From Gracilibacter sp. BRH_c7a (lineage in GTDB: Bacteria > Bacillota > Desulfitobacteriia > Desulfitobacteriales > Syntrophobotulaceae), in NCBI GenBank assembly GCA_001516055.1, contig LOEZ01000084.1, positions 1-45,076 on the forward strand: a stretch of DNA of 45,076 nucleotides, in the 5' to 3' direction. The translations under genes were made by a program, and so were the position numbers. Shown one piece after another: positions 10,943 through 16,736 of the stretch. Under the pieces are notes generated by a model. It ran no database searches. It was not told the origin of the DNA and was given only the letters and a program-made list of their open reading frames with translations. Numbering within the stretch: position 1 is the stretch's first letter; each line of letters starts with the position of its first letter.

Positions 10943-11015
10943 AATAGGTTAATGCAAGTGAGAGCTGGACCGCAGCATGCACTATTCGGCAATAATGCCT
11001 TCCTGACGAAAAATC
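10943..11015 (+). repeat. partial copy of dispersed repeat (family R)
   Basis: The tract from AATAGGTTAATGCAAGTG through AGAGCTGGACCGCAGCAT to GCACTATTCGGCAATA matches the unit repeated at 16534-16620 almost base for base, then decays over the hairpin part (ATGCCTTCCTGACG). It fills most of the 214-bp gap before the AI-2E-type permease gene; no other gene is supported in that gap. A 63-codon frame runs through it but has no family resemblance. Confidence 0.8.
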
Positions 11016-11085
11016 CATGGAGGGACAAAATATTATCAGTTTTCAAAAAGAGTCTTAGAGTCTTGGCTGAGCTGGGGGATGGAAG

Positions 11086-12185: not shown

Positions 12186-12230
12186 TAAAATATATTTTTT
12201 AGTTTAAGTTTCGTCCGTTAATCATATGAC

Positions 12231-12278
12231 AGCAGTGCTGTAAGCACTTTTGGGCAATAGCGACCTCCTGTCGCAAAG
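12231..12278 (+). repeat. diverged copy of family R repeat in the alaS leader
   Basis: AGCACTTTTGGGCAATA corresponds to the GCACTATTCGGCAATA core at 10979 and 16586. It is followed by a perfect 5-bp stem GCGAC/GTCGC around the loop CTCCT. The homologous position at 16601-16617 has the different stem AACGCC/GGCGTT around the same loop, so the pairing is kept although the sequence changed. It is transcribed in the alaS 5' leader if the promoter above is right. Confidence 0.65.
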
Positions 12279-12354
12279 TCTAAAGGATTTATAAATACCG
12301 CACTACTTTCTAAATTATTGGACCAAGAATCATAACAGGCTTAGGAGGAAGATG

Positions 12355-16465: not shown

Positions 16466-16736
16466 GACAGTATCTCAACAGCACTATTCGGCAATAGGCA
16501 CACCATGCCAAGGTGAGAGCTGGACCGTAACAAGCACTTTTCAGCAATAGGTAGATTAATGCAAGTGAGAGCTACACCACAGCATGCACTATTCGGCAAT
16601 AACGCCCTCCTGGCGTTAACTGCCGCGCTCCGCATCCGTGCTCCGCTTGTCGTGTATGCTGCGGTTCAGATTAGATGGAATTGTGTGCGGCATAGGCCGT
16701 ATAAGTTCCGCTTACCGTGCTTGTTGAGATACTGTC
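16466..16736. repeat. 271-bp inverted-repeat (MITE-like) element
   Basis: Perfect 15-bp terminal inverted repeats, GACAGTATCTCAACA at 16466-16480 and its complement at 16722-16736, continue as GCAC/GTGC across a 1-base indel. No transposase gene lies inside. The left half is made of family R units and the right half is a loose inverted copy of similar sequence (for example TACGGCCTATGCCGCACAC read on the minus strand). No convincing target-site duplication was seen. It occupies the gap between the reductase gene and ruvX; small frames inside it are not supported as genes. Confidence 0.7.
16481..16620 (+). repeat. imperfect tandem array of about 52-bp family R units
   Basis: Cores begin at 16481 (GCACTATTCGGCAATAGG), 16534 (GCACTTTTCAGCAATAGG) and 16586 (GCACTATTCGGCAATAAC), giving periods of 53 and 52 bp. 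GTGAGAGCTGGACCG, or a variant, lies between cores. Hairpins follow two of the cores: GGCA/TGCC with loop CACCA, and AACGCC/GGCGTT with loop CTCCT. Confidence 0.8.

Follow-up and report, generated by a model that had tools for sequence, protein, structure and literature searches.

MITEs and the mosaic repeats BOX and Correia are short, non-coding, modular and nested elements with terminal inverted repeats. REP/BIME elements are palindromic repeats of 20-40 bp that carry a GTAG or CGTC tag (PMC3733652). The proteins CsrA and RsmE recognise an ANGGAN hexaloop (PMC7652899), and template switching during replication can create and mend hairpins, giving covariation between the arms of inverted repeats without selection (PMC8794818).

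Here we describe a structured and uncatalogued repeat family in organohalide-respiring bacteria and their relatives, which reaches tens of copies per genome in several complete or near-complete genomes. The window analysed is the whole of contig C84 (45,076 nt) in the 4.1-Mb assembly of Gracilibacter sp. BRH_c7a, where a sequence-only reading had drawn attention to hairpins that differ in their stems and share a CTCCT loop. The hairpin it reported is the centre of a larger unit, and the family to which that unit belongs is real, strongly covarying, high in copy number and not found in Rfam.

Results

The repeat unit and its copies in the window

Aligned copies define the unit as an imperfect palindrome of ~115 bp, intergenic and non-coding. 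Its three helices are stacked, and an unpaired bulge on its 3' side is conserved. The unit runs from an outer arm (GAGCTACACCGYAGCAWGCAC) through a TTTT internal loop, the CGGCA middle stem, a linker, the centre hairpin, TGCCG and a 26-nt bulge (CGCTCCGCATCCGTGCTCCGCTTGTC) to the closing arm (GTGCATGCTRCGGTGTAGCTT), with the TTTT loop facing the conserved bulge. The outer arm measures ~20 bp, the middle stem 5-6 bp and the centre hairpin, whose loop contains TCC, 6-8 bp. In copies of the window's genus the feet read GTGAGAGC.../...GCTTAGAT; many Dehalobacter copies have GGTCTG.../...CAGACT.

All of the window's copies described below lie on the plus strand. The full-length copy, with centre hairpin, middle stem, 20-bp outer arm and 3' bulge, occupies positions 16564-16677; it is a member of A1, an alignment of 34 copies from the window's genus, and is found with 117 bits (E 2.8e-27) by R1, the covariance model built from aligned window-genus copies. 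Its core GCACTATTCGGCAATA (16586-16601) comprises the 5' inner arm, a TATT internal loop and the CGGCA middle stem, and ends in GCAATA (16596-16601), the last letter of which opens the centre hairpin at 16601-16617: AACGCC (16601-16606), CTCCT (16607-16611) and GGCGTT (16612-16617), a hairpin that covaries in A1. This copy is the inner part of a nested array, flanked by an aldo/keto reductase gene and ruvX, in which extra 5' half-units precede the full unit at a spacing of 52-54 bases. The second half-unit, GTGAGAGCTGGACCGTAACAAGCACTTTTCAGCAATA, lies at 16513-16549 (direct repeat D1), and the outermost 5' arm, GACAGTATCTCAACAGCAC at 16466-16484, leads into the third half-unit and pairs with the outermost 3' arm, GTGCTTGTTGAGATACTGTC at 16717-16736; nested arrays are present both here and in the sister genome G001. 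The sequence-only reading had counted GGCA-CACCA-TGCC (16497-16509) as a third hairpin of the series, a view that does not survive comparison: it sits in a 5' half-unit that has no centre hairpin, and the orthologue in the sister species (L108) has GCGA...TACC in its place, and these do not pair.

Upstream of alaS, a degraded copy keeps the core and an intact centre hairpin at 12244-12274, with GCGAC at 12260-12264, CTCCT at 12265-12269 and GTCGC at 12270-12274; the model match covers 12222-12316 (17 bits, E 0.079) and the BLAST match extends to 12301. The positions first given for this hairpin and for the one at 16586-16617 proved exact. Another copy (10945-11029) is also degraded: its 5' half is there, its centre hairpin has decayed and module B (see below) is reduced to a remnant; the orthologous site in G001 (L137) has a full copy. 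Besides the copy ahead of alaS, one copy lies upstream of an AI-2E transporter gene. The core GCACTWTTSRGCAATA occurs exactly five times in the window, always on the plus strand, and ten times genome-wide with at most one mismatch (the window's five included), against none for the reversed control; in G001, 58 places match it with at most two mismatches, against none in controls. A different repeat, resembling CGCTTCTCTGCTCTAAAGGTTCGCT-AAGCAATGCACAAATA, adjoins several copies in G000 (the window's own genome) and G001 (L008, L126, L131, with similar flanks).

In some copies the centre hairpin is separated from the partner of the middle stem by an additional 47-50 bases, here called module B. 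In many relatives within the order it also occurs alone, or in tandem with a period of 49-51 bases. Two orthologous Dehalobacter copies, L354 in Dehalobacter restrictus (G003) and L312 in G013, differ in that the centre hairpin of the former contains module B and that of the latter does not, which suggests that B inserts as a module of its own. Solo copies (~47 nt; e.g. L251:750, L253:763 and L257:755, the latter two on the minus strand, L254 and L255) hold two or three ANGGAN motifs and the hairpins GTCC-AUGGAU-GGAC and TGCC-ANGGAN-GGCA; in L251, L253 and L257 the module is in sense orientation directly ahead of the Shine-Dalgarno sequence of the next gene, a position at which CsrA-type control would be plausible.

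Distribution among genomes

R1 finds 11 copies in G000, 58 in G001, 52 in G003, 63 in G013, 68 in G017, 53 in G023, 39 in G021, 35 in G012, nine in G004, six in G002 and two in G010. Five genomes of genus g3 have between 39 and 68 copies each, and further copies fall in g2, g4 and g10, while none was found in G008 or in genera g5-g7, g9 and g11. G041, from a different family, has at least 36 copies and its genus-mate G048 has none, a patchiness that would be typical of mobile repeats.

A known RNA family was rejected as the identity of the repeat: an Rfam cmscan of the window at the gathering score left the repeats unmatched, and eight related loci gave no match up to E 1. The sole match in the window was to OLE at 1-254, the 3' part of that RNA (RF01071, 166 bits), truncated by the contig end. 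A plasmid origin was likewise set aside, with no BLAST match in PLSDB.

Stems covary among paralogues and between orthologues

In A1, 91.4% of cells are paired, as against 14.9-42.7% when the structure is slid along the alignment, and double compensatory changes affect 21 of the 34 base pairs. A covariance model had been proposed as the way to check the hairpins, and in the alignment behind R1 the double-change cells number 107, compared with 29.5±5.5 in shuffles. Variation is most striking in the centre stem, which exists as GCGAC/GTCGC, ACGCC/GGCGT, GCCAC/GTGGC, ATGAC/GTCAT, GTGAC/GTCAC and ACAAC/GTTGT; the pair that closes it turns from A-T to T-A in copies with CAATT...AAAC. Over the six innermost pairs 203 of 204 cells are Watson-Crick and the remaining one is T-G, such that the stem has passed between versions with hardly an intermediate. 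The original observation, that stems differ while pairing and the CTCCT loop are kept, thus holds well beyond the two copies on which it was made, with the CTCCT loop present in most copies.

Paralogous subfamilies can inflate covariation counts, and orthologous loci were therefore examined as well. At the ruvX locus the window has GACAGTATCTCAACA as its outermost arm and G001 (L108) has GACAGCATTTCAGCA, and the partner arm is altered to fit, giving three compensated pairs. Across 27 orthologous Dehalobacter elements, a strand-neutral count restricted to Watson-Crick pairs yields 20 double changes from one Watson-Crick pair to another where ~1.2 are expected. Mismatches accumulating in the stems at the neutral rate would have spoken against a maintained structure; at these orthologues paired sites changed at 5.9% and unpaired sites at 10.3% (p 1.4e-6), with 9.7% for the alignable flanks. 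In Dehalobacter and its relatives all four pair types are used at most outer pairs and pairing is retained, and in G041 the sequences of all three stems differ within an unchanged architecture. Outer arms can be entirely different between lineages and still pair, with the bulge and the CTTTTCG and TCC loops being retained; stems, in short, have repeatedly been swapped for other paired sequences and the letters of loop and bulge kept, and this holds for several genera and for a second family.

The sequence-only reading took covariation to mean selection for structure as RNA or as single-stranded DNA. The covariation itself is significant in both paralogues and orthologues, but the step to selection is less secure, as template switching can produce covarying arms without it (PMC8794818). 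On that account one arm is copied onto the other, mutation bias keeps the stems perfect and the repeats are inert relics; the absence of strand-biased wobble intermediates among the orthologue double changes and the near-absence of any intermediates in the centre stem of the window's genus are what such a process, able both to create and to mend hairpins (PMC8794818), would leave behind. We nevertheless consider it unlikely as a full explanation. The stems evolve more slowly than their flanks (5.9% against at least 9.7%), and every lineage examined retains the 26-nt bulge, which is asymmetric, as well as the loop letters; copying of arm to arm would erase such asymmetry, and something therefore appears to recognise the unpaired letters.

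Which strand, and which nucleic acid

The suggestion that the loop resembles the anti-Shine-Dalgarno sequence, and that an RNA carrying it might bind ribosome sites, rests on the plus-strand loop of the window's genus, which in A1 is mostly CTCCT, more rarely ATCCT or TTCCT. There ACCTCCT is found in 21 of 34 copies and the plus strand is the sense strand; elsewhere ACCTCCT is found in one of 156 copies (the shorter CCTCC in 36/63, 34/73 and 4/20), and the family-wide loop, NTCC(N)T, has free positions inside the supposed word. An RNA that pairs with ribosome-binding sites is accordingly very improbable, and for the family as a whole this role was rejected, the loop not being conserved as an anti-Shine-Dalgarno word. 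The word is the plus-strand view of a GGA loop on the minus strand.

On that minus strand the Dehalobacter-type loop is, in nearly all readable hairpins, ANGGAN closed by C-G, in which the A and the GGA are fixed and N is free. Outside the window's genus the centre loops are ATGGAT (23), ATGGAG (21), ACGGAG (16), AAGGAG (13), AAGGAT (10), ACGGAT (7) and others, and there nearly all readable centre hairpins have both the hexaloop and the C-G closing pair of a CsrA-type site; the bulge contributes a second GGA motif, (C)ANGGAN. We regard this likeness to CsrA/RsmE sites as the most interesting feature left unexplained. A minus-strand structured RNA whose GGA loop and bulge motif bind and titrate a GGA-binding protein, CsrA or one like it, would account for the match of A(N)GGAN closed by C-G to the known hexaloop (PMC7652899), and also for a bias in the outer arms of the window's genus, where plus-strand mispairs are A-C in 35 cases and G-T in three (excluding the outermost pair, for which G-T is the usual state), the A-C mispairs being G-U on the minus strand. 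Counted by hand as events the bias is ~16 to 3 (p 0.004), which is a hint only because the copies share ancestry. Against such an RNA, mispairs at the Dehalobacter orthologues are 23 G-T and 20 A-C, without G·U preference; in the window's genus most tandem contexts place the minus strand in antisense; the loops are shortened to AGGAN pentaloops in that genus and in G041; and CsrA (PF02599) was not detected in G001 (58 copies, 84% complete) or G041 (at least 36 copies, 91% complete), both incomplete assemblies, whereas it is present in G000, in Dehalobacter and in many genomes that lack the repeat. Taken together these observations make a titrating RNA improbable. Control by CsrA in Bacillota is known via the protein FliW, and it is tempting to speculate that the repeats could form a genome-scattered sponge in this phylum, as minus-strand RNAs or parts of mRNAs offering GGA hairpins to a CsrA-like protein, although we would rate this slightly lower still.

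The strand-neutral mispairs of the orthologues suit DNA at least as well as RNA. Given these, an orientation that varies by lineage, the lack of an Rfam match and the lack of a terminator-like site, a sense RNA shared by the family is not favoured.

Placement relative to genes

In the window's genus the repeat is mostly plus-sense to neighbouring genes (43 against 8 entries, nested copies not collapsed), a co-orientation that would not be required of a purely DNA-level element. Elsewhere orientation is near even, 21 to 15 in tandem contexts of Dehalobacter and 4 to 5 in G041. One might therefore ask whether the hairpin acts at the 3' end of mRNAs, directly after stop codons, protecting or ending the upstream transcript as has been proposed for some REPs. 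Window-genus entries are mostly sense to the upstream gene, many of them starting a few bases from its open frame, and divergent placement is rare in Dehalobacter (3 of 53 resolved contexts); the hairpin is not followed by a T-run, and nothing resembling a terminator was found inside the repeats, for which reason an intrinsic terminator was rejected, and the near-even orientation outside the window's genus also counts against a 3' element, which we judge rather improbable.

Neighbouring Dehalobacter copies face each other, plus then minus, in 27 of 30 pairs. In that genus the repeat thus shows the inverted dimers, intergenic placement and avoidance of divergent promoters of REP/BIME; facing pairs and avoidance are established for Dehalobacter, and in the window's genus copies nest within each other. 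Facing pairs (e.g. L302, L315, L345, L351 and L359) have ~30-50 bases of adjoining spacer in common, and pair and spacer together may form the mobile unit. The repeat has inverted arms, as MITEs do. No transposase was found adjoining the copies, and the orthologue alignments yielded neither a target duplication nor a clean empty site, several orthologous sites being occupied in both species. Mobilisation by a RAYT was rejected: Y1 genes (RAYT-type, PF01797) occur in G000, G001 and G003 without a flanking element, R1 finding no copy at these loci, and G013 has no Y1 match despite its 63 copies.

Discussion

The best reading of these data is of an uncatalogued repeat, probably once mobile, with a hairpin that is important, or is homogenised, at the level of DNA. 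We think it somewhat probable, judging from comparative sequence analysis, that this is a non-autonomous palindromic repeat of the REP/BIME type that is recognised as folded single-stranded DNA. The unpaired letters of loop and bulge would be the recognition feature of the folded strand, and complementarity of the arms would be upheld by selection acting on the fold, by template-switch copying from arm to arm, or by both. With hundreds of copies and many at orthologous sites, the family is a good natural test of how far stem covariation arises from selection and how far from template switching, a distinction that bears on every claim in which covariation is offered as proof of a functional RNA.

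Like MITEs, BOX and Correia elements, the repeat has terminal inverted repeats and is short, non-coding, modular and nested; it differs from them in that neither an autonomous partner nor a target duplication was found and in that its centre is conserved as structure. With the CsrA-binding RNAs of the CsrB/RsmZ type (PMC7652899) it has in common the ANGGAN loop with C-G closing and more than one GGA motif per strand, but CsrA is undetected in two high-copy genomes and gene orientation is inconsistent. In organisation the repeat resembles REP/BIME (PMC3733652): palindromes lie between genes by the dozen and on the 3' side of genes, inverted dimers occur, and subfamilies differ in the complementary residues of their stems. 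It is not classed as a REP because size, foot tag and RAYT association all speak otherwise, the unit being a three-helix structure of ~115 bp that conserves a bulge rather than a stem-loop of 20-40 bp, with feet other than GTAG or CGTC and no associated RAYT. Bacillota, moreover, are not among the groups reported in the REP/BIME survey (PMC3733652), and it is in Bacillota that the repeat described here is found.
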